From Hyphomicrobiales bacterium (GTDB lineage Bacteria; Pseudomonadota; Alphaproteobacteria; Rhizobiales; Rhodobiaceae): a stretch of DNA of 64,000 nt. The position numbers and the translations under genes are program-made. Positions 2,865-34,796 of the stretch are shown piece after piece. Every line of letters starts with the position of its first letter. Position 1 is the stretch's first letter. The notes beneath the pieces are model-generated. The model was not told the origin of the DNA. It was given only the letters and a program-made list of their open reading frames with translations, and searched no databases. Location of the stretch: assembly GCA_002869065.1 (NCBI GenBank), contig PKTR01000002.1:124001-188000 (forward strand), in the 5' to 3' direction.

Positions 2865-2881
2865 GTGCTATGCCGCTCCGA

Positions 2882-4468
2882 TCACGGCAGCATCATGCCG
2901 CGGAAAACGAAATAAAACATTGCCGCGAGAACCGCCGAGACGGGAACGGTGATGATCCATGCCGACACGATCTTAAACAGCGAGGAGCGCTTGAACAATT
3001 GGCGCTTCAGGGCCTTGCGGAGCTGCTTGCGCTGCGCGGCGTCGATGACGGCTTCCGGCCCCATGGCCTTCAGTTCCTGCAGCATGCGCTCCTTTTCCAC
3101 CGAGGGCGCGTTCTGGAAGCGGCGCAACACGGCTTCGGCCTGCGAGAAATCGGCCTGGCCCTCATGCTTGGACAGCACGTCCTCGACCACCGCGCCCATG
3201 CGCTGCTCGAGGAACTCGCGCAGGAAGCCGACGCCGAAGACGGCGCCGAGCGCGACATGGGTGGAGCTGATCGGCAGACCGAGCTGGCTGGCCACGATCA
3301 CGGTGATGGCGGCGGCCAGCGCGATGCAGAAGGCGCGCGAGCGATCCAGTTCGGTGATCTCGGTGCCGACGGTGCGGATCAGCTTGGGCCCGAACAGCGC
3401 CAGACCGAGCGAAATGCCAAGCGCGCCGATCGCCATCACCCACATCGGGATCGCAACCTTGGCGCCGCCGCCGCCGGCAACCGTCAGTGCGTCGACGATA
3501 CCGGCGAGGGGGCCGACCGCGTTGGCGACGTCGTTGGCGCCATGGGCGAAACTCAACAGCGCGGCAGCAAAGATGAGCGGCAGGCCGAACAGACGGTTGA
3601 CGCCTTCGCGGTCCGGCGAGACCACCGTCAGCTTCTTGCGCACCTGCGGACGCACGATTATGAAGACCACCACGGCCATGACGAAACCGGCGACAAGCGC
3701 GACCGGGAACGACACCGCGACGATGTGCTTGATGCCCTTCAGCGCGATATAGGTGGTGAACGCCCAAGCCATGATGGCAATCATCGCGGGCACCACCTTG
3801 ATCGCCTGCTCGACAGGATCGTCTCGGAAGAACACCAGCCGCTTCAGGGTGTAGAGGAAAGCGGCGGCGATGATCCCGCCGGTGATCGGCGAAACGATCC
3901 AGCTGAGCACGATCATGCTCATGGAATTCCAGTTGACGATGTCCCAGCCGGCGGCGGCGATACCGGCGCCCATGACACCGCCGACGATGGAGTGCGTGGT
4001 CGACACCGGCGCGCCGAGCCAGGTGGCGAGATTGAGCCAGATGGCTGCGCCGAGAAGCGCGCCCATCATCACCCACACGAACATGTCTGAATTGCCGATA
4101 GTGGCCGGGTCGATGATCCCCTTCTTCACCGTCTTGACCACATCGCCACCGGCGATGATGGCACCGCCCGCCTCGAAAACGGCGGCGATGAGGATCGCGC
4201 CCGTCAAGGTCAGGGCAAAGGAGCCGACGGCCGGCCCGACATTGTTGGCGACGTCGTTGGCGCCGATATTCATCGCCATGTAGGCGCCGATGACGGCGGC
4301 CGCGATCAGCAGGTAGACCTGCTCGACATGGCCGAACTTCGAACCGGTGTATATCATCACGATCATCATGAAGATGATCGCCGAACCGATGCGACCGATC
4401 TCGCCGCGGCTGATGCCCGCTGCCTGCTCGATCTTGAGGTATTCCTTGAGCTTCAAATTCGCCCCCAT
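2882..4468 (-). CDS. pit: PiT-family inorganic phosphate permease
   Basis: This low-affinity phosphate permease works by proton or cation symport in the inner membrane. It has about ten hydrophobic segments and the two PiT signature repeats, GANDVANNVGPAVGS near the N terminus and GANDVANAVGPLAG in the second half. The start chosen is ATG 4468 (MGANLKLKEYLKIEQ), preceded by GGGGAA; an upstream in-frame start at 4561 would add 31 residues rich in Cys and Arg that do not look native. With start 4468 the protein has 528 residues. It is followed 17 bases later by the Na/Pi cotransporter gene. Pairing of Pit with a PhoU-like partner is common in rhizobia; here the PhoU-like domain is in the cotransporter. 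Confidence 0.9.
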   Translation of the reverse strand: MGANLKLKEYLKIEQAAGISRGEIGRIGSAIIFMMIVMIYTGSKFGHVEQVYLLIAAAVIGAYMAMNIGANDVANNVGPAVGSFALTLTGAILIAAVFEAGGAIIAGGDVVKTVKKGIIDPATIGNSDMFVWVMMGALLGAAIWLNLATWLGAPVSTTHSIVGGVMGAGIAAAGWDIVNWNSMSMIVLSWIVSPITGGIIAAAFLYTLKRLVFFRDDPVEQAIKVVPAMIAIMAWAFTTYIALKGIKHIVAVSFPVALVAGFVMAVVVFIIVRPQVRKKLTVVSPDREGVNRLFGLPLIFAAALLSFAHGANDVANAVGPLAGIVDALTVAGGGGAKVAIPMWVMAIGALGISLGLALFGPKLIRTVGTEITELDRSRAFCIALAAAITVIVASQLGLPISSTHVALGAVFGVGFLREFLEQRMGAVVEDVLSKHEGQADFSQAEAVLRRFQNAPSVEKERMLQELKAMGPEAVIDAAQRKQLRKALKRQLFKRSSLFKIVSAWIITVPVSAVLAAMFYFVFRGMMLP

Positions 4469-21220: not shown

Positions 21221-21982
21221 TCACCCCACAATCCCGACCACGATGAGCCGGATTGCCGCGGCCGTCGCCAACGCCAGCGCGATCCAGCGGAAGCGGCGGT
21301 CGATCCAGTCGCGGCAATAGGGCGCGAGGCGGACGCCGGCATACATGGCCGGCGCCAGAAGTACGACGCCAACGAAGTCCTGCAGATCGACCCGGCCGGT
21401 GGCGGCCAGAACCAGAAACGAGGCCATCGCGCCGAACGAAAAGAAGGCGCTCAGCGTCGGGCGCGCATGGCCCGGCGCGGCGTTCTGGTAGACGATCGCC
21501 ATTGGCGGCGCGCCAACCGAGGTGATGGTGCCGGTGAGGCCCGAGACCGTGCCCATGGTGACGAGCGAGATACGGTTCAGCGGCAGCACGACGCCGGCGA
21601 CGCTGAGGATGACGGCGACGAGGATCGAGAGACCGAAGGCGAGCGAAAAGCCGTGCCGGTCCGGCAGCAAATAGAGCACGAGCGCGGCGAGAAACGCACC
21701 GGACACGCGGCCGAAAAGGCCGATGCCGACCTCGTCCCAGTGGATCGCCGGGCGCTCGCGCACCGCGGCCATCGTCGCCGTGACGAAGCCGAGCAATAGC
21801 ACCGGGACCGGCACCAGCTCGACATCGATGACGGCGAGCAGGGGGGCTGCGACGAGGCCGAAACCCATACCGGTGTTCGACTGCACCATTGCCGCGACAA
21901 GCACGATGGCAATCGCCAGCGCGTAGGACGGCAACGGCAGCAGATGCAGGCCGAGCGCTTCGATTGCCGTCCCTCCCCTCAA
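21221..21982 (-). CDS. TauE/SafE-family membrane exporter
   Basis: A ~253-residue inner-membrane protein with about eight hydrophobic segments in two repeats. The family-type motif AAMVQSNTGMGFGLVAAPLL near the N terminus and GLTGTITSVGAPPMAIVYQN at the start of the second half mark TauE/SafE (PF01925). Members export sulfite, sulfoacetate or organic acids. The reading begins at TTG 21982, 11 bases after the TRAP large permease gene, but the exact start is uncertain because a GGGGAGGG lies just inside it. It closes the TRAP operon, which makes it a candidate exporter for a by-product of the substrate taken up; whether that is a sulfur oxyanion cannot be told. Confidence 0.85.
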   Translation of the reverse strand: MRGGTAIEALGLHLLPLPSYALAIAIVLVAAMVQSNTGMGFGLVAAPLLAVIDVELVPVPVLLLGFVTATMAAVRERPAIHWDEVGIGLFGRVSGAFLAALVLYLLPDRHGFSLAFGLSILVAVILSVAGVVLPLNRISLVTMGTVSGLTGTITSVGAPPMAIVYQNAAPGHARPTLSAFFSFGAMASFLVLAATGRVDLQDFVGVVLLAPAMYAGVRLAPYCRDWIDRRFRWIALALATAAAIRLIVVGIVG

Positions 21983-21993
21983 TCAGGCCGGGT

Positions 21994-23307
21994 TTACGTC
22001 CCCGGCCGCGCCCGCATGTTCTCGGGCAGATAGGTGGCGAGATCCGGGAAGAAGATCAGGATGAACACCATCACCACCATGATCAGGAACATCGGCAGCG
22101 CGGCGCGGGCGATGTAGCCCATCTCGTGGCGTGTCATGCCCTGCATCACGAACAGGTTGAAGCCGATCGGCGGGGTGATCTGCGCCATCTCGACGACGAC
22201 GACGATGAAGATACCGAACCAGATGACGTCGATGCCGGCCTGGCGGATCATCGGCTCGACGACCGCCATGGTCAGCACCACCGAGGAGATGCCATCGAGG
22301 AAGCAGCCGATGATGATGTAGAACACCATCAGCGCGAGGATCAGCACGGTCGGCGACAGGTTCAGCGAGGCGATCCACTGGGCCAGTTCGCGCGGCAGGC
22401 CGGTGAAGCCCATCGACAGCGACAGGAAGGCGGCACCAGCGAGGATCAGCGCGATCATCGCCGAGGTGCGCGTCGCGCCCATCAGACTTGCGGTGAAGCT
22501 CTTCCAGGTCAGCGAGCGCTGGCCGGCGGCGAGCAGCAGAGAGCCGATGACGCCGAAGGCGGCCGCTTCGGTCGCGGTTGCGAACCCGAGATACATCGAG
22601 CCGATAACGAGCGTGATGAGCAGAATGACCGGGATCAGGAAACGGGAGTTCTTGACCCGGTCGAGCATGGTCATTTTGGGCTCAGGCTTCGGCGCCTCGC
22701 CGCGGTGGAACACCGACAAGAGCGCGACATAGAGCATGAACAGCGTAGCGAGCACGAGGCCCGGCAGGATGCCGGCCATGAACAGCTTCGAGATCGACTC
22801 GTTGATGGTGACGCCATAGACGATCAGCGTCAGCGACGGCGGGATCATCAGCCCGAGCGTTGCGGCGCCAGCCAGCGTGCCGATCACCATCTTCTCGGGA
22901 TAGCCGCGCTTGCGGAGTTCGGGGATCGACATCTTGCCGACGGTGGTCAACGTCGCCGCCGACGAGCCGGACACCGCGGCAAAGACCGTGCAGCCGACGA
23001 TGTTGGTGTGCAAAAGGCCGCCCGGTAGTGGCGCCATCCATGGCGACAACCCCTTGAACATGTCCTCCGACAACCGCGTTCGATAGAGGATCTCGCCCAT
23101 CCAGATGAACAGCGGCAGCGCTGTCAGCGACCAGCTCGAGGACGAGGTCCAGATCGTCGTGATCATGGCGTCGCCGGCCGGGCGCGTGGTGAACAGTTCG
23201 ACGCCGACGAAGGCAACGCCAAGCAGCGCCAGACCGACCCAGACGCCGGAGCCGAGCAGCAGGAAGAGAACGAAGAGAAAGATGCCGGTGAGTGCGAATC
23301 CGTCCAT
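21994..23307 (-). CDS. dctM: TRAP transporter large permease (DctM family)
   Basis: A 437-residue, ~12-helix inner-membrane protein of the DctM family, the ion-coupled translocation subunit of a TRAP transporter. Typical features are FLFVLFLLLGSGVWVGLALLG at the start, AAVSGSSAATLTTVG, LMIPPSLTLIVYG and the C-terminal AQITPPIGFNLFVMQG. It begins 5 bases after the small permease and ends 11 bases before the TauE gene. Together with the binding protein at 24014 it should import a carboxylate, probably the substrate of the linked flavoprotein, enolase and ThDP enzymes. Confidence 0.93.
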   Translation of the reverse strand: MDGFALTGIFLFVLFLLLGSGVWVGLALLGVAFVGVELFTTRPAGDAMITTIWTSSSSWSLTALPLFIWMGEILYRTRLSEDMFKGLSPWMAPLPGGLLHTNIVGCTVFAAVSGSSAATLTTVGKMSIPELRKRGYPEKMVIGTLAGAATLGLMIPPSLTLIVYGVTINESISKLFMAGILPGLVLATLFMLYVALLSVFHRGEAPKPEPKMTMLDRVKNSRFLIPVILLITLVIGSMYLGFATATEAAAFGVIGSLLLAAGQRSLTWKSFTASLMGATRTSAMIALILAGAAFLSLSMGFTGLPRELAQWIASLNLSPTVLILALMVFYIIIGCFLDGISSVVLTMAVVEPMIRQAGIDVIWFGIFIVVVVEMAQITPPIGFNLFVMQGMTRHEMGYIARAALPMFLIMVVMVFILIFFPDLATYLPENMRARPGT

Positions 23308-23312
23308 GGCCG

Positions 23313-23846
23313 CTACTCCCCGTGGCTCTGTTCAACGGTGTCCGCCTTGATGCCGTGCGAGCCGGCGAAGATCAGGCGGAAAAGATGGTCAGCGAAGGCG
23401 AGCGCCAGAAGGCAGGTGCCGATGGCCATCGCCATTTGCGGGATCCAGATCGGCGTCGCATCCTGACCCTGACTGATGTCGTTCAGCTTGCGCGACCAGT
23501 AGACGGCCTTGACCGCGTACCAGGCGAAATAGGTCGACAGCGCCGTGCCGATACCAAAGCACCAAAGCTCGCCCCAGAATCGGTATTTGCCGAGATTGTT
23601 GAGCAGGATGCTGACGCGGATATGGGCGCCATGGTTGAGCGCGTGCGCGAAAGCAAAGAACGATGCGGCGGCCATGAAATAGCCGGCATAATCGGTCGAA
23701 CCGGGGATGACCTGACCGGTCCAGCGCGCGCTCATCTGCAGCACGATGATGATCAGAATCATGATCAGACAGAGAGCGGCGATGATGCCGCCGGCGGTGT
23801 AGAGCGCATCGAGAATGCGCCTGAGGGTGCGCCCCAAAGCCTGCAT
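23313..23846 (-). CDS. dctQ: TRAP transporter small permease (DctQ family)
   Basis: A 177-residue protein with four hydrophobic segments, the DctQ layout: ILDALYTAGGIIAALCLIMILIII first, then the SARWTGQVIPGSTDYAGYFMAA region conserved in this family, and a last helix near MAMAIGTCLLALAFADHLFRLI. It partners the DctM protein encoded 5 bases later. The start ATG 23846 follows GGGGGAA. A 167-base spacer separates it from the binding protein gene. Confidence 0.9.
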   Translation of the reverse strand: MQALGRTLRRILDALYTAGGIIAALCLIMILIIIVLQMSARWTGQVIPGSTDYAGYFMAAASFFAFAHALNHGAHIRVSILLNNLGKYRFWGELWCFGIGTALSTYFAWYAVKAVYWSRKLNDISQGQDATPIWIPQMAMAIGTCLLALAFADHLFRLIFAGSHGIKADTVEQSHGE

Positions 23847-24013
23847 TTTCGTTCCCCCGACCGAATTTGCCCTGGCGGCGGGATGCCCGATCCCGGACCG
23901 TCACAAGCCTGTGCATGGAAGGAGCGGCGCAGCGGACCGGTCACGCAGACGGCCCGGCGGTCACTCCGGCAGAAAAGCCGGGAGGGTCGCCCCTCCCGGC
24001 CTGTCGTTCGGGC

Positions 24014-25006
24014 TTACTGCATCGCCGTGAAGGCGTCGACGATGGCCTTGCCTTCTTCGCCGGCGCTCTCGAGCCACTCGGCGGTCATGGTCTTGCCGAT
24101 CTCTTTCAGCTCGGCGGTCAGGCCGTCATTTGCCTTGCCGACGGTCATGCCGTTGTCCTTCAGCCCGTTCAGGGTGAACTGGGTGTATTCGACGGCACGC
24201 CAGTTACCGGCGTATTCGGCGAGGTTGGCGCAGCCGAGGATGACGTTCTGCGTACCCTCGTCGAGACCGGTCCAGGCGTCCTTGTTGACGAAGACGTAGT
24301 TGCGCGGCAGCCAGGCATCGACCTCGTAGAAGTGGGTCAGGCTTTCCCAGACCTTGCGGTCGTAGCCGGTCGAACCCGACGAGATCATCGATTCGGCGAC
24401 GCCGGTGGCAAACGCCTGCGAGATTTCAGCGGCTTCGATCTGCACCGGCAGCATGCCGGTCAGTTCGGCGAGACGCGCGGTCGCGGTCGAGTAGGAGCGG
24501 AACTTGACGCCCTTCATGTCGGCGACCGAGTTCACTTCCTTCTTGAAGTAGAGGCCCTGCGGCGGCCACGGCACGGCGTAGAGCAGCTTCAGGTTCTGAC
24601 CGTCGAGGACCTTTTCGAGCGTCGGCTTGGCGGCCTTCCACAGCTTCGCGGAATCCTCGAACGAGGTGGCGAGGAACGGGATCGAGTCGAAGCCGAAGAT
24701 GGCGCTCTCGTTCTGGTGGGCCGACAGCAGGCGTTCGCCGATCGGCGCCTGGCCGGTCTGCACCGCGCGCTTGATCTCGTTGCCCTTGAACAGCGAGCCG
24801 GACGGGTGGGTGACGATCTCAAGATTGCCGCCGGTACCGGTGGTGACGCAGGCGGCGAATTCGGCGCCGACCGCGGAGTGGAAGTTGGTCGCGGAATAGG
24901 CCATCGGCATATCCCACTTCTCGGCCTGCGCGGCGGTTGCCGCAAGGCCGGCCAGCAATACGCCGGCGCTGACCGCCGTGGTCATCTTGATGAATTTCCG
25001 GATCAT
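24014..25006 (-). CDS. dctP: TRAP transporter substrate-binding protein (DctP family)
   Basis: A 330-residue periplasmic protein with a Sec signal peptide (MIRKFIK, hydrophobic to ~residue 22, AAQAEKW). The mature sequence is DctP-like, including VKFRSYS, whose Arg is the residue that normally salt-bridges the carboxylate of the ligand, and FATGVAESMISSGSTGYD. Other positions differ from well-known C4-dicarboxylate DctP proteins, so the ligand is probably a different organic or amino acid. It starts after AAGGGAG and is 96 bases from the flavoprotein gene, which suggests cotranscription with the enolase-flavoprotein pair. Confidence 0.92.
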   Translation of the reverse strand: MIRKFIKMTTAVSAGVLLAGLAATAAQAEKWDMPMAYSATNFHSAVGAEFAACVTTGTGGNLEIVTHPSGSLFKGNEIKRAVQTGQAPIGERLLSAHQNESAIFGFDSIPFLATSFEDSAKLWKAAKPTLEKVLDGQNLKLLYAVPWPPQGLYFKKEVNSVADMKGVKFRSYSTATARLAELTGMLPVQIEAAEISQAFATGVAESMISSGSTGYDRKVWESLTHFYEVDAWLPRNYVFVNKDAWTGLDEGTQNVILGCANLAEYAGNWRAVEYTQFTLNGLKDNGMTVGKANDGLTAELKEIGKTMTAEWLESAGEEGKAIVDAFTAMQ

Positions 25007-25102
25007 CGTGGATCTCCCTTTTCACTTGCTCCAGACTGTTGACTTCCCCTCACCGGGCCAGTGTGGCCCGTAAGTTCTTGCTCGAAAACCCCTTCCCCTT
25101 TT

Positions 25103-26389
25103 TTACGCGGCGAACCGCGCCGGGTCGTAGAGCGTCAGGTCGGCGTTGGATCGCCGGCCCGAGATCATGTCGGCCAGCATGCGGCCGGTCTTCGGTCCGC
25201 CCGTCAGGCCGATATGGTGGTGGCCGAAGCCGAGATAGACGCCCGGCTTTCCGGGCACTTCGCCGATCAGCGGGATCGAGTCCGACGGCGCCGGGCGGTG
25301 ACCCATCCAGCGCACGACCTCCTTGTATTCGATGCCCGGCAGCGCCTCATGGATACGATGCAGAAGCAGCTTGAAGGCGGCCTCGCTCGGCTCGGCGTCC
25401 AGCCCGCCGAATTCGACGATGCCGGCACAGCGCAGGCGCCCTTCCATCGGCGTCGCGACGAATTTGCCCGTCGTCACCATCATCGGCGAACGCGGCATGA
25501 CCGACGGTTCGACCAGCTCGATGTGGTAGCCACGCTCGGTTTCGAGCGGCACGTCGAGACCGAGCTTCTTGCACAGCGGCTTCGACCACACGCCGGTCGC
25601 CATCACCACCTTGTCGGCGGCGATCAGGCCCTCGTTCGTGTCGACACCGACGACCTTGCCGCCCTCATAGGCGACGTCGCGGGCTTCGGCGATGACGAGC
25701 CTGCCGCCATTGGCGACGACGTGATCGGCGAGCGCCTTCACATGCATGCCGGGATCGGTGATGTGGCCGTGGTCAGGCATGCGCACGGCGAAGTCGTAGC
25801 CGTCGCCAAAGGCCGGATCGTAGACGCGGAAGGCGTCGCGATCGAGCAGTTCCCAGGTGAAGCCGAATTCCTTGCGCAGCTTCCAGACATAGGCGTCGGA
25901 TTCGTAGGCCGCGCGGTCGGCGTAGACGAAAACGTAGTCGGACGGGACGACGTATTTTTCCGCCGGAGTGCCGGCGGCGAGCGCCAGATGCTGTTCGACG
26001 CTGTCGCCGAGAAGCTGGGTCAGCGCGGCGCCGACGCGGCGGTTCGCCTTCTCGGTCGCGTTCATCATGTAGCGCAACAGCCAGGGCGTCAGCTTCGGCA
26101 TATAGCCCCATTTGAGGAACAGCGGGCTCAAGGGATCGAGCAGCATGCCCGGCGCCTTGAACATCAGGCCGGGCACGGTGACCGGGACGACCGCGCATGA
26201 GGCGAGCACGCCGCCATTGCCGTGCGAGGTGCCTTCGGCGGGGCCGAGCTTGTCGATCAGCACCACGTCAAAACCGTCGCGCTGCAGCCAGACCGCGGTG
26301 GAAACACCGACGATGCCGGCGCCGATGACGGCGACGGTTTCGCGCTTGGCGCCGGACTCTTTGGAATTCTGGGTCATTGTCTCGCTCAC
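25103..26389 (-). CDS. FAD-dependent D-amino-acid dehydrogenase-like oxidoreductase (DadA family)
   Basis: A 428-residue DAO-family flavoprotein. The dinucleotide loop is GAGIVGVSTAVWLQRDGFDVVLID (18-41) and the second FAD element GTSHGNGG follows at ~53-60; C-terminal GFGHHHIGLTGGPKTG closes the FAD site. The overall pattern matches DadA, which oxidises D-amino acids to keto acids at the membrane with quinone as acceptor; relatives oxidise cis-4-hydroxy-D-proline. The start is GTG 26389 after AGGAG, 3 bases past the enolase stop. Linked enolase, ThDP enzyme and TRAP importer suggest it acts on an imported amino or imino acid; substrate unproven. Confidence 0.85.
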   Translation of the reverse strand: MSETMTQNSKESGAKRETVAVIGAGIVGVSTAVWLQRDGFDVVLIDKLGPAEGTSHGNGGVLASCAVVPVTVPGLMFKAPGMLLDPLSPLFLKWGYMPKLTPWLLRYMMNATEKANRRVGAALTQLLGDSVEQHLALAAGTPAEKYVVPSDYVFVYADRAAYESDAYVWKLRKEFGFTWELLDRDAFRVYDPAFGDGYDFAVRMPDHGHITDPGMHVKALADHVVANGGRLVIAEARDVAYEGGKVVGVDTNEGLIAADKVVMATGVWSKPLCKKLGLDVPLETERGYHIELVEPSVMPRSPMMVTTGKFVATPMEGRLRCAGIVEFGGLDAEPSEAAFKLLLHRIHEALPGIEYKEVVRWMGHRPAPSDSIPLIGEVPGKPGVYLGFGHHHIGLTGGPKTGRMLADMISGRRSNADLTLYDPARFAA

Positions 26390-26392
26390 CCG

Positions 26393-27532
26393 TCAGCTCC
26401 TGGTCTCGATGGCGTAATGGCCGAGCTTGTCCTCGTCGATGGCGATGCCGAGCCCCGGCCCGTCGGGCACAATGACGGCACCGTTCTCGATCGGGAACTG
26501 CTCCTCCAGGAGATCTTCCTTCAAATAATATTGCGCCTGGTAGAACTCGCAGCCGAGCGCGATCGCCGGCGTTGCCGCGATCATGTGCGTGCCGGCGAGG
26601 TGGGCAAGCCCGGTCTCGAACATATCGCCGCCATAGGCGCCGAGACCGGCGGCGGCGGCGATTTCGGCAATCGTCCGGCCGGCTCTGAGACCGCCCGACT
26701 TCATGATCTTGATCGAGAAGCCGTCGGCGGCCTCCTCGGCAATTGCGCGCAACGCGTCGGTTGCCGTGAACACGCTTTCGTCGGCGAGGATCGGCACGTC
26801 GAGCGAGGCGGCGAGCGAGGCCATCAGCGAGACCTTGTCGGCGCGCACCGGCTGCTCGATGAAGGTCGGCGAAAAGACCTCGATGTCGCGCAGGCGGCGC
26901 AGCGCGTCGAAAGGCGCAAGGCCCTGATTGTAGTCGACGCGGATATCGAGTTCGGGAAAGTCGTTGCGCAGGGATTCAAGGCGCATGACGTCAAAGTCGT
27001 GGCCGGCAAAACCGGTCTTCAGCTTGACGATGCCGACGCCATCTTCAATAAGGCGTTCGACCAGCGCGAAATCGTTTTCCCAGGTCGGGTCGGCAAGCGA
27101 GACGCTCAGCGGAATGGTGTCACGGCAGCGGCCGCCGAGCAGCGCCCAGACCGGCAGGCCGTAGTAGCGGCCGAGGCAATCGAGCAGTGCGGTTTCAAGG
27201 GCTGCCTTGGCATCGCCATGGCCGGCAAGAGCGGCGTCGGCGGACGCCATGATGCCGGAGATGTCGCGCGGGTCGGCGCCGATGACGAAAGGATGGAGAT
27301 AGGTCGCGAGCGCCACCATGGTCGCTTCGGCGGTGCCGGCAAAGACCGGCCAGGGAGCGGCTTCGCCCCAGCCGACGACGCCTTCACTGGTCTCGAGACG
27401 GAGGATGACGTGGGCTGTGGTACCGGCGACGTCGCCAATGCCGTGGCTGCGGCGCGACCGGACCGGCAGGCGAGCCAAGGTGACCGTCATGCGGTCGATC
27501 GTACCCGGACCGTCGCCGAATGCCTCCCTCAC
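26393..27532 (-). CDS. Enolase-superfamily enzyme, muconate lactonizing (MLE) subgroup
   Basis: A 379-residue enzyme with the capping domain and TIM-like barrel of the enolase superfamily. Metal ligands are Asp200 (VDYNQG), Glu226 (IEQP) and Asp251 (ADES). The bases are a KxK pair Lys170/Lys172 (VKLKTG) and Lys275 on the opposite face (SIKIMK), the set that defines the MLE subgroup, which holds muconate cycloisomerases, dipeptide and hydroxyproline-betaine epimerases and cis-3-hydroxy-L-proline dehydratase. No muconate or o-succinylbenzoate genes are adjacent, so epimerisation, racemisation or dehydration of an amino-acid-like substrate fits the DadA-like neighbour better (inference). Start GTG 27532 follows AAGGGAGG; ATG 27490 is an alternative. 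Confidence 0.88.
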   Translation of the reverse strand: MREAFGDGPGTIDRMTVTLARLPVRSRRSHGIGDVAGTTAHVILRLETSEGVVGWGEAAPWPVFAGTAEATMVALATYLHPFVIGADPRDISGIMASADAALAGHGDAKAALETALLDCLGRYYGLPVWALLGGRCRDTIPLSVSLADPTWENDFALVERLIEDGVGIVKLKTGFAGHDFDVMRLESLRNDFPELDIRVDYNQGLAPFDALRRLRDIEVFSPTFIEQPVRADKVSLMASLAASLDVPILADESVFTATDALRAIAEEAADGFSIKIMKSGGLRAGRTIAEIAAAAGLGAYGGDMFETGLAHLAGTHMIAATPAIALGCEFYQAQYYLKEDLLEEQFPIENGAVIVPDGPGLGIAIDEDKLGHYAIETRS

Positions 27533-27555
27533 GGCATTTGCCTCCCTTGTTGCCC

Positions 27556-27630
27556 CATCGGATGTTCCCCAACGTCCGATGAGAGGACACGATAAGATTT
27601 TATCGATAATTTGTCGATATAACCTCGATA
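27556..27630 (-). promoter_or_regulatory. Phased TCGATA operator-like array upstream of the enolase gene
   Basis: Three TCGATA motifs start at 27603, 27614 and 27625, exactly 11 bases apart, in an AT-rich stretch unlike its surroundings. The first is inside the 10-base palindrome TTATCGATAA. Between the array and the enolase start is an inverted repeat CATCGGA (27556-27562) and TCCGATG (27575-27581). Same-face spacing suggests cooperative binding of a regulator and an internal promoter for the enolase-dadA-TRAP-tauE genes. The regulator is not identified; the GntR operator candidate at 29456 has a different sequence. Confidence 0.5.
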
Positions 27631-27673
27631 ACTTTTTTCAGACCCGGTTCCGCAGCTCCTTTGCCGGCGTCGA

Positions 27674-29377
27674 TCAGGCGATCCATTCGCTGACGGGCGC
27701 AGCTGCATCCTGCAACGGCTCGGCGATCACGTCTACAAGAGTCGGCTCACCGGCCTCGACGGCCTTGCGCAACACGCCTTCCAATTCGCTCGGATCCTCG
27801 ACCCGCCAGCTCTTCACGCCATAGGCGGCGGCGACCGCGGCGTGGTCGGTGCGCGAGAAGTCGACATTGTAATATCGCTCGTTGTAGCCGCTCTTCTGGC
27901 CGGCCTTGATCCAGCCGAACACGCTGTTGGAAAACACGATTGCGGTGATCGGCAGGCGATGGCGGACGATGGTTTCGAACTCGCCGACCGTGAAGCCGAA
28001 GGACCCGTCGCCCATCGCGGCGACGACCTGCGCATCGGGACGACCGATCTGCGCGCCCATCGCCGCGCCAAGCGCGTAGCCGAGCGCGCCGTGCGCCCGG
28101 TTGGAGATGAAATGCCGGCCGGTCTGGCGTGTCGGATAGAAGGCCGAGAAGTACGGGCACGGCGTGCCCGGATCGGCGCAGATTACGGCATCGTCGGCAA
28201 GCACGCGCGACAGCGTCGCGATCACCCGCTCCGGCGTGATCGGCCGCGATGTCGAGGCGGCGAGACGTTCGAAAGCGGCGAATTTATCTGCCTTTGCTTT
28301 CGACACCCGCGCGGCGCCGTCATTGCCGGCATGTGCCGAGCCGACTTCGCCTTCAACGGCATCGGCCAACGCGGCAAGAGCGAGCTTGGCATCGCCGATG
28401 ACGGCGGCCTCGGTCTCGTAATTGGCCGACACCGCCATCGGGTCGGAATCGATATGAACGATGCGGGTGCCCGGCGCCGGGAAACGCCAGCGCTCGGTCG
28501 TCACCGAGCCGGCGCGGCAGCCGATGAAGAGCACAAGATCGGCTTCGGCGACGACCGCGCGGGTCGCCGGCACGCCGCCGTTCGAGCCGACCACACCAAG
28601 CGCGAGCGGATGGCTGTCGGGGATACTCCCCTGCCCCGAGATCGTCGTTGCGACCGGCATCGAAAGCGCCTCGGCAAGGCGGATCAGATCCGCTTCGCCG
28701 CCCGACAAGACGACGCCGCCGCCGCAGACGATGATGCCGCGTTTAGCCGTCACGAGCGCCTTGGCAGCCGCTTCCACCGCGCACGGGTCGGGGCCGGTGC
28801 GCCAGGCCGGGAAGGTCGCGTGATCGCTCTGCGCCCAGATCTCGCTGTCGGCGACGGCTGCGCGCTGCACGTCGAGCGGCAGGCCGATATGGGCGGCGCC
28901 CGGCGTGCCGGTGGTCATGGCGCGGAAGGCCTCGCGCATGGCAGACGGTAGCCGCGAGGCGTCATCGATCACCGTGTTCCATTTGGTCAGCGGGCGGAAC
29001 AGCGCCGCCTGATCGAGCTCGGTCAGCGGATAGCGGCCGCGCGCCGTGGTCGAGACGTCCGTGGTTATTGCAAGTATGGGCACAGAGGACTCGTTTGCCT
29101 CGACCACGCCCGGCAGAATGTAGGTCGCGCCGCCGCCGGACGGGCCTTCGCAGACGCCGACGCGGCCGGTGACGCGGGCATAGGCGTCGGCCATATAGGC
29201 GGCGTGGCGCTCGTCGCGAGTGAGGATGTGGGTGATGCCGTGATCGAGGCGTTCGAGCGCATCGTAGAAGGGCAGCGTGGTGTCGCCGCACAGGCCGAAC
29301 ATATGCTTCACGCCGTGCGCGGCGAGCATGCGGACCATGGCTTCGGCACCGGTCAGTTCGTTGCCCCGCGTCGTCAT
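27674..29377 (-). CDS. Thiamine-diphosphate-dependent enzyme, acetolactate synthase-like
   Basis: A 567-residue ThDP enzyme with the three-domain layout of the acetohydroxyacid synthase family. The catalytic Glu56 is in LTRDERHAAYMADAYARVTG, and the ThDP/Mg motif GDGSFGFTVGEFETIVRHRL lies near residue 445. In the middle domain GCRAGSVTTERWRFP suggests a nucleotide or FAD-like fold. It is not a clear AHAS large subunit: no small subunit gene is nearby and the context is catabolic. Carboligase, decarboxylase or acetyltransferase activity on a 2-keto or aldehyde intermediate is possible. The start ATG 29377 follows GAAGGAACGG. It is divergent from the GntR gene and upstream of the enolase gene. 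Confidence 0.85.
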   Translation of the reverse strand: MTTRGNELTGAEAMVRMLAAHGVKHMFGLCGDTTLPFYDALERLDHGITHILTRDERHAAYMADAYARVTGRVGVCEGPSGGGATYILPGVVEANESSVPILAITTDVSTTARGRYPLTELDQAALFRPLTKWNTVIDDASRLPSAMREAFRAMTTGTPGAAHIGLPLDVQRAAVADSEIWAQSDHATFPAWRTGPDPCAVEAAAKALVTAKRGIIVCGGGVVLSGGEADLIRLAEALSMPVATTISGQGSIPDSHPLALGVVGSNGGVPATRAVVAEADLVLFIGCRAGSVTTERWRFPAPGTRIVHIDSDPMAVSANYETEAAVIGDAKLALAALADAVEGEVGSAHAGNDGAARVSKAKADKFAAFERLAASTSRPITPERVIATLSRVLADDAVICADPGTPCPYFSAFYPTRQTGRHFISNRAHGALGYALGAAMGAQIGRPDAQVVAAMGDGSFGFTVGEFETIVRHRLPITAIVFSNSVFGWIKAGQKSGYNERYYNVDFSRTDHAAVAAAYGVKSWRVEDPSELEGVLRKAVEAGEPTLVDVIAEPLQDAAAPVSEWIA

Positions 29378-29455
29378 TTCCCGTTCCTTCATCTCTTGCC
29401 ACAGGCGGTGCCCGAACCGCTTTCCGGCACGTTCAACGCTAGCCCGCAACAACTC

Positions 29456-29485
29456 TATACAAGCCTGTATACAGGTGAGTATAAT
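29456..29485. promoter_or_regulatory. GntR-type operator and promoter between the ThDP enzyme and GntR genes
   Basis: The 154-base divergent spacer contains CCTGTATACAGG (29464-29475), a perfect palindrome, and an overlapping TATACA-AGCC-TGTATA (29456-29471). Sites centred on GTATAC are typical of FadR/VanR-class GntR repressors. Immediately to the right is a perfect -10 hexamer TATAAT (29480-29485) reading toward gntR. Binding here would control both the ThDP operon and the regulator itself. Confidence 0.6.
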
Positions 29486-29531
29486 CTCAGCCAGCTGTCA
29501 AGCGATTCCGATTTCGGGAGGATGGAAGACC

Positions 29532-30287
29532 GTGCCCGCAGCCAGTTCCGCCCAGCCGGCGGCATCACGTTCCGAGGCGACAACCACGCCCTCTTCAGCC
29601 ACGACCAATGTGGGGCGCATCGAGGATGCCGTGCGGCGTATGGCGATCGCCTACGAGTTCCTGCCCGGCGAACGGATCAATGAGGGCGACCTCGCCAGGA
29701 AACTCGGCGCCAGCCGCACCCCCGTGCGCGAGGCGCTCAACCGGCTGCTCGCCGACGGGCTGATCCTGTTCCGGCCCGGTCAGGGGTTCTTCTGCCGCCA
29801 GCTCGATCCGAAGGAGATTTTCGATCTCTACGAGGTGCGCCGCATTCTCGAGGTCGAGGCCGTGCGGCTGGCCTGCGAGCGGGCGAGCGACGAGGCGCTC
29901 TCGGCCGTCGTCGCGGCCTATGCCAGCCACAGCGCGGCAACCGACGGCAAGACGGTCGAAGCACTGGTCGAGGATGACGAGCGTTTCCACCTCAGCGTCG
30001 CCGGGCTCGCCGGCAATGGCGAACTGGTCGCGCGGCTTGCCAAGATCAATGAGCGCATCCGCTTCGTGCGCTGGATCGACATGGACGATCGCCTGCCCTA
30101 CACACGCGGAGAGCATGAGGCGCTGGTGGCAGCACTTGAAGCGCGCGATGCCGACGCCTGCGCCGGTGTTCTGACGACGCATATCGGCAAGCGGCTCGAC
30201 CAGATCGTCGCCGTCGTACGGCGCGGCATTTCGCGATTGTACGTGCCCGATATGCCGGGCATGGTGGATCACACATCCACGCAATAG
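29532..30287 (+). CDS. GntR-family transcriptional regulator (FadR/FCD type)
   Basis: A 251-residue repressor. The winged helix (~35-100) has RINEGDLARKLGASRTPVRE, the GntR signature, and the C-terminal all-helical FCD domain (~110-235) carries metal- and ligand-binding positions such as DDERFHLSV, and HEALVAALEARDADAC. FCD regulators usually sense organic acids. The start is GTG 29532, after GGAGG and GGAAGA; the frame is open further upstream but into the promoter. Divergent from the ThDP gene and 12 bases before the racemase gene, it should regulate this catabolic locus, probably through the palindrome at 29464. Confidence 0.88.
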   Translation: MPAASSAQPAASRSEATTTPSSATTNVGRIEDAVRRMAIAYEFLPGERINEGDLARKLGASRTPVREALNRLLADGLILFRPGQGFFCRQLDPKEIFDLYEVRRILEVEAVRLACERASDEALSAVVAAYASHSAATDGKTVEALVEDDERFHLSVAGLAGNGELVARLAKINERIRFVRWIDMDDRLPYTRGEHEALVAALEARDADACAGVLTTHIGKRLDQIVAVVRRGISRLYVPDMPGMVDHTSTQ

Positions 30288-30299
30288 GGAAACGTCGTC

Positions 30300-31037
30300 A
30301 TGATCGCACTCGGCGGCAAAACGGTCTTCGGCGCCACGGTCGGCATCCTGATGCTGGAAACGCGGTTTCCGCGCATTCCCGGCGACATGGGCAACGCGCT
30401 GACCTGGCCCTTCCCGGTGCATTACCGGGTGGTGCGCGGGGCGAGCCCCGACGTCGTCGTGCGACGCGATCCGAGCGCCCTGAAGGATGCCTTCATCGAA
30501 GCCGGGCGCGATCTCGTCGCCATGGGTGCCGACGGCATCACCACCAATTGCGGCTTCCTCATCCGCTTCCAGAACGACCTCGCCGACGCGCTCGGCGTGC
30601 CGGTCGCAACCTCGGCGCTGATGCAGGTGCCGCTGGTCGAGGCAACGCTGCCGGCCGACCGCCGTGTCGGGGTGCTGAGCATTTCGGCCAACACGCTGAC
30701 GCCGGCATTGCGCGCCGCCGCCGGTATTTCCGAGGATACGCCGGTCGTCGGCACCGACGGGGGCCGCGAGTTCACCCGCGCCATCCTCGACGACGAGCCG
30801 GAAATGAATGTGGAGCTTGCCCGCCAGGACCTGCTCGACGCGGCAGCCGCGCTCATCGAGGACCGGGCCGACATCGGCGCCATCGTGCTCGAATGCACCA
30901 ATATGGTGCCCTACGCGGCCGATATCCGCCGCCTCACCGGCCTGCCGGTCTATTCGATCTACTCGTTCGTGAGCTGGTTCCAGGCCGGCCTGCTGCCCCG
31001 CCGCTTTCCCGAACACCACGACGATCCGCGGTATTGA
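30300..31037 (+). CDS. Aspartate/glutamate/hydantoin racemase family protein
   Basis: A 245-residue cytosolic enzyme of the Asp/Glu racemase superfamily, with two lobes each giving one catalytic Cys: Cys84 in GITTNCGFL and Cys199 in VLECTNM. The sequence LMLETRFPRIPGDMGNALTWPFPV near the start is characteristic of the subfamily found beside catabolic operons rather than MurI. Such enzymes racemise amino acids or hydantoins, or isomerise maleate. Here it follows the GntR gene by 12 bases. Producing the D-isomer for the DadA-like enzyme is an attractive but unproven role. Confidence 0.82.
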   Translation: MIALGGKTVFGATVGILMLETRFPRIPGDMGNALTWPFPVHYRVVRGASPDVVVRRDPSALKDAFIEAGRDLVAMGADGITTNCGFLIRFQNDLADALGVPVATSALMQVPLVEATLPADRRVGVLSISANTLTPALRAAAGISEDTPVVGTDGGREFTRAILDDEPEMNVELARQDLLDAAAALIEDRADIGAIVLECTNMVPYAADIRRLTGLPVYSIYSFVSWFQAGLLPRRFPEHHDDPRY

Positions 31038-31698: not shown

Positions 31699-32748
31699 TC
31701 AGCCGTAGCGGTACGGCCGGCCGGCCTTGGCCATGTCGGCGTTGTACTTCTTGAAGATGTCGACGACCTTCTTCTTGGTGTCGGACTCGGCCGCGATTTC
31801 GTCCCAGAACTTGTGGGCAGCGGCTTCGACCTGATCCCATTCGGCGTCCGGAATCGAGGTCAGCTTCATCTTGGTTCCGTCGACACGCAGCGCGGCTTCG
31901 CCGCCCCAGTACCACCACTGGCGGTAATAGTGCGAGGACTCCATGGCCAGCATCAGCAGTTCCTTGAGATCGTCCGGCACTTCGTTCCAACGGTCCATGT
32001 TGGCGAAGAAGTGGCCGATCCAGGCGCCCGAGATGTTGTTGGTCAGGAAGTAGTTGGTCACGTCGGCCCAACCTACCGTGTAGTCCTCGGTGATGCCCGA
32101 CCAGGCGATGCCGTCGAGTTCGCCGGTCTGCACGGCGACTTCGATGTCTTCCCACGGCAGGGTGACCGGCACGACGCCGAACTGGGCCAGGAAGCGGCCC
32201 GCGGTCGGGAAGGTGAAGACGCGCTTGCCCTGCAGGTCGGCGAGCGAGTTGATCGGGTCCTTGGTGGCGAAGTGGCACGGATCCCACGAGCCGGCGGAGA
32301 TGTGCTTGACGCCGACCTTGGCGTATTCCTCTTCCCAGATCTTCTTCAGGCCGTACTGGTTGAACAGCACCGGCACGTCGAGCGAATAGCGCGAGGCGAA
32401 CGGGAAGTAGCCGCCGAACACGGTGACTTCGGTCGGCGAGGCCATGGAGTCGTCGTCCGACTGCACCATGTCGATGGTGCCGGCCTGCATGGCGCGGAAC
32501 AGTTCACCGGTCGGAACCAGCGAGTCCGAGGTGTAGAGCTCGATCTCCATGCGGCCGGCGGCGATCTTGTTGAAGGAGTCGATGGCCGGCTTGACCACGT
32601 GCTCGGCGAGCGCCGGGCCGGCATAGGTCTGCAGGCGCCACTTGATCGGGGCCTGCGCCTTCACATAGGGCGCGGCCAGGGTGGAAGCACCGACGGCGGC
32701 TGCGGAGCCGAGGGCGGCGTTTTTCAGAAAATCGCGTCTATTGGTCAT
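31699..32748 (-). CDS. TRAP transporter substrate-binding protein (TakP-like) with Tat signal
   Basis: A 349-residue periplasmic binding protein. The N terminus TNRRDFLKNAALGSAAAVGA is a twin-arginine signal with cleavage near PYVKAQA. The mature part resembles the TakP/DctP7 group that binds 2-keto acids or similar carboxylates, with KWRLQTYAGP, GKRVFTFPTAGRFLAQFG (conserved ligand-region Arg), ELDGIAWSGITEDY and a Trp-rich RQWWYWGG. The start ATG 32748 puts the signal at the very N terminus; the upstream extension to 32835 is rejected. It is the last gene of the second TRAP operon, behind a 120-base spacer containing a hairpin. Confidence 0.9.
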   Translation of the reverse strand: MTNRRDFLKNAALGSAAAVGASTLAAPYVKAQAPIKWRLQTYAGPALAEHVVKPAIDSFNKIAAGRMEIELYTSDSLVPTGELFRAMQAGTIDMVQSDDDSMASPTEVTVFGGYFPFASRYSLDVPVLFNQYGLKKIWEEEYAKVGVKHISAGSWDPCHFATKDPINSLADLQGKRVFTFPTAGRFLAQFGVVPVTLPWEDIEVAVQTGELDGIAWSGITEDYTVGWADVTNYFLTNNISGAWIGHFFANMDRWNEVPDDLKELLMLAMESSHYYRQWWYWGGEAALRVDGTKMKLTSIPDAEWDQVEAAAHKFWDEIAAESDTKKKVVDIFKKYNADMAKAGRPYRYG

Positions 32749-32811
32749 GGCGGTTGTCCTCTGTTTCAAGACGGTCGTTTGGCTCTTTGACGTTTTTCTT
32801 GTTTTTGGAGC

Positions 32812-32830
32812 CCGCCGGACGACCCGGCGG
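32812..32830 (-). other. Hairpin in the spacer between the large permease and binding protein genes
   Basis: CCGCCGG (32812-32818) and CCGGCGG (32824-32830) form a perfect 7-base stem with a 5-base loop. In the minus-strand RNA it is not followed by T residues, so it is not an obvious terminator. A processing or stabilising element that raises the level of the binding protein relative to the permeases is likely (inference). Confidence 0.45.
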
Positions 32831-32868
32831 AGCATCGATGCAAAGTTGGCGCGAATGCGTCCGTCACC

Positions 32869-34179
32869 TCATCGGCTGTAGACGTATTCCGGCAGCCACA
32901 GGGCGATCTGCGGGAACGCCATCACTATGGCCAGCGCCAGGATCATCACGCCGACGAACGGCACGATGGAGCGGTAGATGTCGTGAATGGTGATTTCCGG
33001 AGGCGCCATCGCGCGCATCAGGAATAGATTGTAGCCGAAGGGCGGCGTCATGTAGGCGACCTGGGTGGTGATCGTGTAGAGCACGCCGTACCAGATCAGG
33101 TCGAAGCCGAGCACCTTCACCAGCGGCACGTAAAGCGGCGCGACGATGACCAGCATCGCCGTGTCGTCGAGGAACGTGCCCATGATCAGGAAGGTCAGCT
33201 GCATGATGATCAGGATGACCCAGGGATTGAGGTCGAGCTGGTCGATGAACAGGCTCTTGATCGCCTTGACCGCGCCGAGGCCGTCGAACACGGCGCCGAA
33301 ACCGAGCGCGGCCATGATGATCCACATGAACATGCACGAGACGAACAGGGTCTGACGGACAGAAACCTCGAACACGGCGCGGTTCATGCGGCCCTTGACG
33401 ACGGCCGCGAGGATCGCGGCGATGGCGCCGATGGCGGAGCTTTCGACGAGGCTCGTCCAGCCGCGCACGAAGGGGAACATCATGACGAAGAAGATAACGA
33501 GCGGCAGCAGGCCGGCGCGCAACAGGCGCATCTTCTCTTCCAGCGGCACGTTGCGTTCCTCGGCCGGCAAGGCGGGGCCGAGGTTGGGGTTCAGCTTGCA
33601 GCGGATGGCGATGTAGATCATGAACATCGCCGCCATCATCAGGCCCGGGAAGACGCCGGCGAGCCAGAGCTGGCCGACCGGCTGGCGGGCGATCATGGCG
33701 TAGAGCACCAGCACCACCGACGGCGGCACGAGGATGCCGAGCGAGGATCCGGCCTGGATGACGCCGGTGACCATGATCTTGTTGTAGCCGCGCTTCAAAA
33801 GCTCCGGCAGGGCGATGGTGGCGCCGATCGCCATGCCGGCGACCGACAGGCCGTTCATCGCCGAGATCAGCACCATCAGCGCGATCGTGCCGATGGCGAG
33901 GCCGCCGTTGAGCGGGCCCATCCAGACGTGGAACATCTTGTAGAGGTCGTCGGCGATCTTCGATTCCGACAGCACGAAGCCCATGAGGATGAACATCGGC
34001 AGGGTCAGCAGCGGATACCAGTTCATCAGGCTGATGGCGGCCGAGAACGGGATATTGGAGCCGCCCGTCCCCCACAAAAGGATCGCGGCGAGCGAACCGA
34101 CGGCGCCGATCGCCCCGAAGACGCGCTGTCCGGTGAACAGCAGCAGCATCATCGAGGAGAACATGAACAGGGCGATCAT
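32869..34179 (-). CDS. TRAP transporter large permease (DctM family), apparent original start interrupted by TAG
   Basis: A 436-residue DctM protein with FTGQRVFGAIGAVGSL near the start, LVPPSVVLVLYAM, and the C-terminal QVAYMTPPFGYNLFLMRAM. As read it starts at ATG 34179, but that ATG has no ribosome site at the right distance. Twelve bases upstream an ATG (34189-34191) overlaps the small permease stop as TGATG and has GGGGAGG 7 bases before it; its reading is ATG-TCC-TAC-TAG-ATG. Relatives commonly begin with MSY and an acidic residue here, so GAG to TAG is a likely nonsense change. Reinitiation at codon 5 could still give a nearly full protein. Confidence 0.88.
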   Translation of the reverse strand: MIALFMFSSMMLLLFTGQRVFGAIGAVGSLAAILLWGTGGSNIPFSAAISLMNWYPLLTLPMFILMGFVLSESKIADDLYKMFHVWMGPLNGGLAIGTIALMVLISAMNGLSVAGMAIGATIALPELLKRGYNKIMVTGVIQAGSSLGILVPPSVVLVLYAMIARQPVGQLWLAGVFPGLMMAAMFMIYIAIRCKLNPNLGPALPAEERNVPLEEKMRLLRAGLLPLVIFFVMMFPFVRGWTSLVESSAIGAIAAILAAVVKGRMNRAVFEVSVRQTLFVSCMFMWIIMAALGFGAVFDGLGAVKAIKSLFIDQLDLNPWVILIIMQLTFLIMGTFLDDTAMLVIVAPLYVPLVKVLGFDLIWYGVLYTITTQVAYMTPPFGYNLFLMRAMAPPEITIHDIYRSIVPFVGVMILALAIVMAFPQIALWLPEYVYSR

Positions 34180-34190
34180 CTAGTAGGACA

Positions 34191-34796
34191 TCACAGCGCC
34201 TCCCCGCGGATGCGCGCGATATCACGGAAGAACTCCGCCAACGCCTGCAGGATCATCAGGAAGATGCCGATGCACATGGTCAGCTTGATCGGCCACATCC
34301 ATGGCCGCCAGGCCGTGTTGGAGCGCTCCAGATAGCCAAGCGCCTTGCCGGCCGCCTCGCCGCCTTCGGTGAAGAAGGTGACAACCAGATCCTTGAAGAA
34401 GGTGAAGGGCTCGCCCTTGAAGTGGCCGAGCGAGTAGGCGGCGCTGTCGATGCCGCCATAGAGCAGCACGCCGAGATAGAAGATCAGGAAGAAGACGATG
34501 ACGGCATCCACCGCCGCCTTGGTCTTGGGCGACCAGGAGCCGTAGAACAGGTCCATGCGGACATGCGCATCGTCCTTGCCCTGCATCGAATACGGCCCGC
34601 CGAGCAGGTAATAGGCGACCATCGCGAACTGAGCCATTTCAAGGGTCCACAGCGACGGCAGGAAGAAGGTCTTGGAGATCGACGACCACAGCAAAATCGC
34701 CATCATCGCGAAGATGAGATACATCGCGAAGCGGCCGAGGCGATAATTGATCGCGTCGACCATGCGGACGAAACCCTTCACGGCGCTAGGCATCAA
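34191..34796 (-). CDS. TRAP transporter small permease (DctQ family)
   Basis: A 201-residue DctQ-type protein with four hydrophobic segments: MYLIFAMMAILLWSSI first, then YYLLGGPYSMQGKDDAHVRMDLFYGSWSPK, which is conserved in the longer DctQ branch, and helices ending with MCIGIFLMILQALAEFF. It has a ~40-residue soluble loop between helices 3 and 4 (FKGEPFTFFKDLVVTFFTEGGEAA). It is followed by the large permease through a TGATG overlap and preceded by the N-formylglutamate-amidohydrolase-like gene at 41 bases. It acts with the large permease and the TakP-like binding protein. Confidence 0.9.
   Translation of the reverse strand: MMPSAVKGFVRMVDAINYRLGRFAMYLIFAMMAILLWSSISKTFFLPSLWTLEMAQFAMVAYYLLGGPYSMQGKDDAHVRMDLFYGSWSPKTKAAVDAVIVFFLIFYLGVLLYGGIDSAAYSLGHFKGEPFTFFKDLVVTFFTEGGEAAGKALGYLERSNTAWRPWMWPIKLTMCIGIFLMILQALAEFFRDIARIRGEAL

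Follow-up and report, generated by a model that had tools for sequence, protein, structure and literature searches.

The genes at positions 21221-31037 of the window, the 64,000-nucleotide stretch of Hyphomicrobiales DNA analyzed here, appear to form a regulon for the uptake and utilization of pyroglutamate (5-oxoproline), with a racemization and an oxidative branch, a reading that we favor with modest confidence. As the predicted ligand, pyroglutamate is well supported, and the order of the enzymatic steps is one that we infer. The gene calls and coordinates of the original prediction were verified for the whole cluster, except that its six genes on one strand are in fact seven minus-strand genes, running from TauE through the ThDP enzyme with gaps of 11, 5, 167, 96, 3 and 141 bp. 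The GC content shows no clear jump across the cluster in 2 kb steps, so that local composition was rejected as a sign of recent transfer, although a search of two same-genus genomes did not find the cluster.

Conservation and modular build of the cluster

The gene set is kept together, as modules, across about 25 genera, and the cluster is widespread among marine alphaproteobacteria, with orthologues in laboratory strains of Ruegeria pomeroyi and Phaeobacter. Among the best 80 enolase loci, DadA adjoins in 78, DctP is present in 78, DctM and DctQ in 77, the racemase in 61, the ThDP gene in 54 (one of them just a 34% paralogue) and GntR in 49, while the genes flanking the cluster are mostly unrelated between loci. 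The clustering of these genes is far beyond chance. The neighborhoods support the original idea of one conserved catabolic unit for import, racemization, oxidation and a keto-acid step; dispersal of the homologous genes had been named as the finding that would overturn it, and the comparison found them kept together.

The modular build was not part of that prediction. The enolase is not an indispensable core, because four DctP-centered loci (L159, L162, L164 and L165) retain DadA, TRAP and racemase genes without it, the racemase match in L165 being weak. DadA is missing in L006, L021 and L188, and in Shinella, Tistrella and Thioclava relatives of the enolase and DadA are paired with an amino-acid ABC importer, not with TRAP genes. 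In Ruegeria pomeroyi and its relatives, the TRAP-enolase-DadA and ThDP-GntR-Rac modules lie at separate loci, as would be expected if the two were independent and had become neighbors by chance. This explanation is very improbable, given that a Rac orthologue occurs in 33/33 genomes holding the cluster with its TRAP-enolase-DadA module, and that the ThDP and enolase genes are coupled, overlapping or abutting in many loci without LysR. In six of the genomes where Rac lies away from the cluster, its neighbors are GntR and the operator, and four of these six have the ThDP gene there as well; in split clusters, GntR, the racemase and usually the ThDP gene travel together with the operator CTGTATACAG.

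The TauE/SafE-family permease (21221-21982, minus strand; Pfam TauE, 78 bits) is encoded in 5/80 related loci, and a BASS-like permease is found downstream in 51/80. Either permease is an optional addition to the cluster, and these counts do not support the earlier role of TauE in exporting an anionic by-product. The amino-sulfonate candidate is not supported either. Amino-sulfonate catabolism, in which TauE would export sulfite and the ThDP enzyme would be Xsc-like, agrees with the family membership of TauE, and its probability is nevertheless close to negligible: TauE is rare among the loci, the ThDP enzyme reaches 285.6 bits with the sulfoacetaldehyde acetyltransferase model (Xsc, TIGR03457; cut-off 676.4), sulfonate genes are absent nearby, and the DctP is of the pyroglutamate type.

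The binding protein and the 5-oxoprolinase link

The TRAP importer comprises the large permease DctM (21994-23307; TIGR00786, 378.6 bits, above cut-off), the small permease DctQ (23313-23846; Pfam DctQ) and the solute-binding protein DctP (24014-25006), all on the minus strand. The three top structural matches of DctP are solved pyroglutamate binders, 6wgm (Z 43.5), 2pfz (43.1) and 2pfy (43.0), and the next-best match follows at Z 35.1; the sequence score with 6wgm is 372 bits, at 58% identity. Moreover, the protein keeps 33/33 signature columns, which are those fixed in the oxoprolinase-linked DctPs and the three solved binders. Both the closeness in sequence and fold and the signature columns place it in the pyroglutamate-binding DctP subfamily. 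Tree building groups the DadA/enolase-associated DctPs in one clade with a support of 100/100, in which 6wgm is nested. These comparisons give good support for a pyroglutamate-binding type of importer. A modified proline, one of the original candidates, was the right direction, because the binding protein points to 5-oxoproline.

Bordetella pertussis DctP6 and DctP7 (2pfz and 2pfy) and 6wgm share the subfamily and all signature residues with the window DctP, and contain pyroglutamate as the ligand in their solved structures. The Bordetella DctP genes are close to a eukaryotic-type 5-oxoprolinase (PMC13274462), whereas the importer of the window is linked to DadA, the enolase and the ThDP enzyme instead. 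6wgm is a marine metagenome protein, the structure of which is titled pyroglutamate-specific.

Eleven columns differ between the DctPs linked to DadA and the enolase and those linked to oxoprolinase. The alphaproteobacterial clade might therefore have shifted to hydroxyproline, proline betaine or another ring amino acid, with the enolase as its epimerase or dehydratase. DadA-like enzymes oxidize D-hydroxyprolines, and the enolase scores 123.1 bits with cis-3-hydroxy-L-proline dehydratase, although the cut-off for that family is 500 bits. Such a shift is unlikely in our view, as 6wgm, with its title, belongs to the clade, the window DctP retains the signature columns, the downstream hydroxyproline genes are absent from the cluster, and 12 loci have pxpBCA within the cluster.

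The link to 5-oxoprolinase, also missing from the original prediction, was observed at several levels. Phylum-wide, 20/33 DctP loci without DadA carry 5-oxoprolinase genes within about 8 kb (OPLAH in 15, Pxp in 5), and DctP lies beside oxoprolinase on plasmids of Azospirillum, Leisingera, Thermus and Acidovorax. The pxpBCA genes are found inside the cluster in 12/80 closest enolase loci, such as L068, and in the genome of L013 Rac is divergent from BASS-pxpBCA. PxpA or full-length OPLAH is encoded in 32/33 cluster genomes and, in addition to these, in that of the window, where OPLAH is on C5 and PxpABC at C2:585-588 kb; neither was detected in the exception among the 33, the draft genome G798. 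In a class sample, oxoprolinase occurs in 18/20 enolase genomes versus 191/365 others (Fisher p 0.0008), but genome size and the high base rate (54%) partly confound this association. The cluster of the window itself contains no 5-oxoprolinase genes and is not a Pxp-type pyroglutamate operon. On the strength of these gene associations, it is well supported that the enzymes constitute one regulated set, to which some of the genomes add 5-oxoprolinase genes.

Enzymes and the proposed racemization and oxidation route

The Asp/Glu/hydantoin-type racemase, Rac (30300-31037, plus strand), belongs to the PRK07475 family (301.2 bits, cut-off 231), and among its homologues Cys84 is nearly invariant and Cys199 invariant. 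The closest folds to the Rac model are the allantoin and hydantoin racemases (Z 17.7-17.1), which share the fold and the two active-site cysteines, but only 14-20% identity; the lead over the aspartate racemases is about 2 in Z, and the glutamate racemases rank lower, at Z about 14. The substrates of allantoin and hydantoin racemases are five-membered ring amides. The modeled fold makes Rac a candidate pyroglutamate racemase, an activity for which we found no report in the literature searched.

The enolase (26393-27532, minus strand) has the KxK motif, the Asp-Glu-Asp metal ligands and the opposite Lys of the MLE subgroup, and K170xK172, D200, E226, D251 and K275 are conserved in 99% of 99 homologues. 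It scores below the cut-off of the curated muconate cycloisomerase model (TIGR02534; 235.6 bits, cut-off 334.95), and that reading was rejected. Its close relatives, probably orthologues, are the orphan structures 3i6e and 3i6t (442-444 bits; 443.7 for 3i6e), which are labeled muconate cycloisomerase, in the case of 3i6e by homology only; a literature search by PDB codes found no publication showing a function for either. A nearly identical protein in an R. pomeroyi strain is encoded within the pyroglutamate-type cluster L068.

The DadA-like FAD-dependent amino-acid dehydrogenase (25103-26389, minus strand) has the DAO fold and belongs to the wider flavoprotein group (Pfam DAO, 194 bits), scoring below the cut-off for DadA itself (PRK00711; 187.5 bits, cut-off 383). 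The ThDP-dependent enzyme (27674-29377, minus strand, with a possible in-frame TTG start at 29452) contains the Pfam TPP_enzyme N, M and C domains, and its catalytic Glu and GDG...N motif are invariant in 62 homologues; its score with the acetolactate synthase large subunit model is below cut-off (TIGR00118; 401.1 bits, cut-off 538.35). None of the catabolic enzymes of the cluster exceeds the equivalog cut-off of a curated functional family.

In the pyroglutamate regulon that we favor, DctPQM would import pyroglutamate, and the cytosolic Rac and/or the enolase would interconvert its L- and D-forms. A 5-oxoprolinase (PxpABC or OPLAH), encoded elsewhere in the genome of the window, could open L-pyroglutamate to L-glutamate. 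The DadA-like flavoprotein would oxidize D-pyroglutamate to a 2-oxo acid, on which the ThDP enzyme may then act; the simplest such product is 2-oxoglutaramate, which equilibrates with 2-hydroxy-5-oxoproline. The oxidative, ATP-independent route as such, from the racemase (Rac and/or the enolase) through the DadA-like flavoprotein to the ThDP enzyme, is proposed tentatively, as a possibility. The flavoprotein would oxidize the lactam ring of D-pyroglutamate and pass the electrons to the respiratory chain. Two points speak against the regulon reading: the oxidation of amino acids N-acylated as a lactam is not among the known DadA reactions, and the cluster showed no gene for an omega-amidase.

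Hydrolysis might instead come first. PxpABC or OPLAH would open pyroglutamate, Rac would be a glutamate racemase, DadA would convert D-glutamate to 2-oxoglutarate for decarboxylation or carboligation by the ThDP enzyme, and the enolase would epimerize the ring form. The presence of a 5-oxoprolinase in nearly every cluster genome and the place of Rac within the Asp/Glu racemase superfamily speak for this order, as does Raoultella, in which dadA expression goes up during growth on D-glutamate (PMC6131576). However, most clusters, that of the window included, carry no oxoprolinase, the nearest folds to Rac are those of ring-amide racemases rather than glutamate racemases, and the draft genome G798 shows neither PxpA nor full-length OPLAH, and we consider the hydrolysis-first order rather doubtful.

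The proposed oxidative logic resembles, by analogy, the use of D-arginine in Pseudomonas, where a D-amino acid is handled by DauA and then by a ThDP decarboxylase, AruI, which is able to act on the 2-oxo acid. The D-arginine route differs in its substrate and importer and in having no MLE enolase, and DauA and AruI are related to the cluster enzymes at the superfamily level only. The DauA flavoprotein converts a D-amino acid to the 2-oxo acid (PMC5619798).

In every cell, glutamate and glutamine give rise to pyroglutamate spontaneously, and some bacteria use it as an osmolyte, yet there are few studies of its utilization by bacteria (PMC13274462). In the literature that we found, bacteria break it down by a route that consumes ATP and yields glutamate. 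Neither a gene cluster of this composition nor a pyroglutamate pathway linked to an enolase, DadA or a racemase was found in the literature searched, and the text of a paper on R. pomeroyi transporter mutants does not mention pyroglutamate; the racemizing and oxidizing route seems not to have been described before. The cluster would add a dedicated pyroglutamate-type importer, a regulator whose operator is defined, and four orphan enzymes, including the 3i6e-type enolase, and several orphan families would gain a named pathway if the pyroglutamate reading is true.

Regulator and operators

As originally described, a divergent regulator-racemase pair, the GntR/FCD transcriptional regulator (about 29532-30287, plus strand; Pfam GntR and FCD) and Rac, lies opposite to the seven minus-strand genes. 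The operator (CTGTATACAG; motif TGTATACA) was present in 40/40 GntR-ThDP intergenic regions examined (0.05 expected, the shuffled mean), and it was also present in all six split loci. This conservation provides good support for the regulator acting on the ThDP-facing promoter through CTGTATACAG. In the window, the operator CCTGTATACAGG at 29464-29475 (no strand assigned) is probably the site of the regulator.

Of the two operator-like sites noted originally, CCTGTATACAGG was borne out by footprinting in 40/40 loci. The second, a TATCGATA-type inverted repeat upstream of the enolase gene (about 27595-27625, no strand assigned), is unproven because a similar sequence recurs in just one other locus, L028, and a conserved second operator ahead of the enolase gene was rejected.

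The pxpTABC-pxpR system of Corynebacterium glutamicum is similar in combining genes for pyroglutamate uptake and catabolism with a divergent GntR regulator and a palindromic operator, a single one in C. glutamicum, but it employs the APC-type transporter PxpT and a purely hydrolytic route, and lacks a counterpart of the racemase, the flavoprotein, the enolase and the ThDP enzyme (PMC13274462). Its operator is agattgttcaacaatct, as compared to CTGTATACAG in the cluster (PMC13274462); the motifs differ, and an operator shared with PxpR was rejected. The GntR/FCD gene, as read from its sequence, starts with GTG after GGAGG.

Gene content and conservation of the cluster

Seven genes follow one another on the minus strand, encoding TauE, DctM, DctQ, the TRAP binding protein DctP (24014-25006), a DadA-like flavoprotein, an MLE-type enolase and a ThDP-dependent enzyme, and genes for a GntR/FCD regulator and an Asp/Glu/hydantoin-type racemase (Rac) stand opposite them. 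The original prediction had described this gene set as a catabolic system at 21221-31037; genes and coordinates are correct and the outline of its interpretation holds, while the substrate it left vague is probably pyroglutamate (5-oxoproline). Comparison with orthologs, such as that of locus L012, most likely places the ThDP protein start at 29377, and the GntR protein start is most likely a GTG at 29532, preceded by GGAGG. The enolase catalytic residues are intact (K170xK172, D200, E226, D251, K275; kept in 99% of 99 homologs), the ThDP enzyme has the catalytic Glu and GDG...N motif found in 62/62 homologs, and Cys84 and Cys199 of the racemase are nearly invariant and invariant, respectively. 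No catabolic enzyme of the cluster passed an equivalog cut-off, and we infer the enzyme roles. A second complete TRAP system (DctP, DctM, DctQ; 31699-34796, minus strand) lies directly behind the cluster; its DctP shares only about 26% identity with that of the cluster and is not a cluster companion in other genomes.

Scanning a single genome per bacterial species returned 369 enolase relatives. The 80 fetched as loci span about 25 genera in Rhodobacterales, Rhodospirillales, Hyphomicrobiales and other groups. The enolase neighbors DadA (78/80), DctP (78/80), DctM and DctQ (77/80), racemase (61/80), ThDP (54/80, one a mere 34% paralog) and GntR (49/80). Since protein identities between loci are near 60% and flanking genes mostly differ, the grouping is selected rather than inherited by proximity. 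The distribution is patchy, and both searched genomes of the window's own genus lack the cluster.

The imported ligand

The window DctP is 58%, 44% and 39% identical to the solved binding proteins 6wgm, 2pfz and 2pfy, whose entry titles all give pyroglutamate, and these three stand apart at Z 43, whereas the best of the other TRAP binding proteins reaches 35. In a tree of 81 sequences, the DadA/enolase-linked DctPs form a single clade (support 100/100) with 6wgm nested within, and the window protein keeps all 33 columns fixed in both the solved binders and oxoprolinase-linked relatives. Among 40 DctP loci sampled phylum-wide, seven have DadA; 20 of the other 33 have a 5-oxoprolinase of the OPLAH type (15) or Pxp type (5) within about 8 kb, as do annotated plasmids of Azospirillum, Leisingera, Thermus and Acidovorax. 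Moreover, pxpBCA lies at the cluster end in 12/80 enolase loci, including a Ruegeria pomeroyi strain. Fold match, tree, signature columns and neighbors thus give strong indirect support for pyroglutamate as the ligand.

The nearest described bacterial system, pxpTABC-pxpR of Corynebacterium glutamicum, is regulated by a pyroglutamate-binding GntR repressor (KD 726 nM; PMC13274462), but differs in its transporter, its operator and its purely hydrolytic route. Bordetella TRAP binders lie near a eukaryotic-type oxoprolinase (PMC13274462), and at L109 and L200 two or three pyroglutamate-type binders surround a single OPLAH gene, resembling Bordetella DctP6/DctP7. At L180, L183 and L197, enolase and racemase genes adjoin an apparent TAXI-type TRAP importer in place of the DctP importer, with an MlrC-like protein at L180 and L183; these genes may form a sister pathway that handles a related substrate.

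Oxidation or prior ring opening

The closest folds to the Rac model are allantoin and hydantoin racemases (Z 17.7 to 17.1), ahead of aspartate racemase (15.8) and glutamate racemases (about 14), which makes a ring amide such as pyroglutamate a plausible substrate. Some MLE-subgroup enolases are N-acyl amino acid racemases, and pyroglutamate is itself an amino acid with an internal N-acylation. Enolase-less loci retain DadA with importer and racemase, which suggests that DadA is central, although three loci lack it. Enzymes of the DadA type require a D-configured substrate and produce a 2-oxo acid or imine; D-pyroglutamate would yield 2-oxoglutaramate, cyclizing to 2-hydroxy-5-oxoproline. Since 2-oxo acids are the substrates of ThDP enzymes, the one encoded here would act on this product. 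Where an amino-acid ABC importer replaces TRAP, relatives retain the enolase, flavoprotein and ThDP enzyme or add a D-2-hydroxyacid dehydrogenase, consistent with a 2-oxo acid product. At L006, which lacks DadA, RidA-like and glutamine-synthetase-like genes (1944-4131) lie directly upstream of ThDP-Rac-enolase-TRAP.

Alternatively, the ring might be opened first and DadA take D-glutamate. PxpA or full-length OPLAH is encoded somewhere in 32/33 cluster genomes, as well as in the window's own, and a class-wide sample has 5-oxoprolinase in 18/20 genomes with an enolase relative versus 191/365 without, hand-counted from the union of two lists, with larger genomes favoring both genes. We consider this order the less likely of the two. 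Direct oxidation of pyroglutamate is possibly a new branch of its use; among the open-licence literature, we found no paper linking an enolase, DadA-like or ThDP enzyme to this compound.

In the window's own genome, a separate operon (L085; G000:C2:585-593 kb) comprises LysR, DUF1445 (D-glutamate cyclase-like), another TRAP, DUF2848-like, PxpB, PxpC and PxpA; a tyrosine integrase gene lies nearby. DUF1445 adjoins pyroglutamate-type TRAP genes in 7/40 sampled loci, a recurrence suggesting a wider D-glutamate/pyroglutamate system.

Operators and modular arrangement

The GntR-ThDP intergenic region contains TGTATACA in 40/40 loci (expectation from shuffled sequence, 0.05); 8-mers outside this palindrome reach at most 17 of the 40. 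In six genomes examined in which GntR, racemase and ThDP are missing from the enolase cluster, GntR and racemase occur at a second locus together with TGTATACA, joined in four by a ThDP ortholog (60-62% identity). Because these split loci keep the operator and Rac occurs in 33/33 cluster genomes tested, the system seems to be built from two modules, TRAP-enolase-DadA and ThDP-GntR-Rac, which many genomes carry side by side and some at separate loci. One split genome has Rac divergent from BASS-pxpBCA, tying it directly to 5-oxoprolinase.

A LysR gene is present in about 48/80 loci, almost always oriented divergently to the enolase gene and, in L012, L047 and others, placed between it and ThDP (or GntR). 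Where LysR precedes the enolase, ATCATTTC lies upstream of the latter in 37/47 loci and is a probable second operator type; the window has neither a LysR gene nor this arrangement. At L222 and L223, in the genomes of L044 and L052, TGTATACA stands beside GntR-Rac and again upstream of a distantly related (34%) ThDP gene, a hint that a substitute ThDP enzyme is under the control of this regulator.
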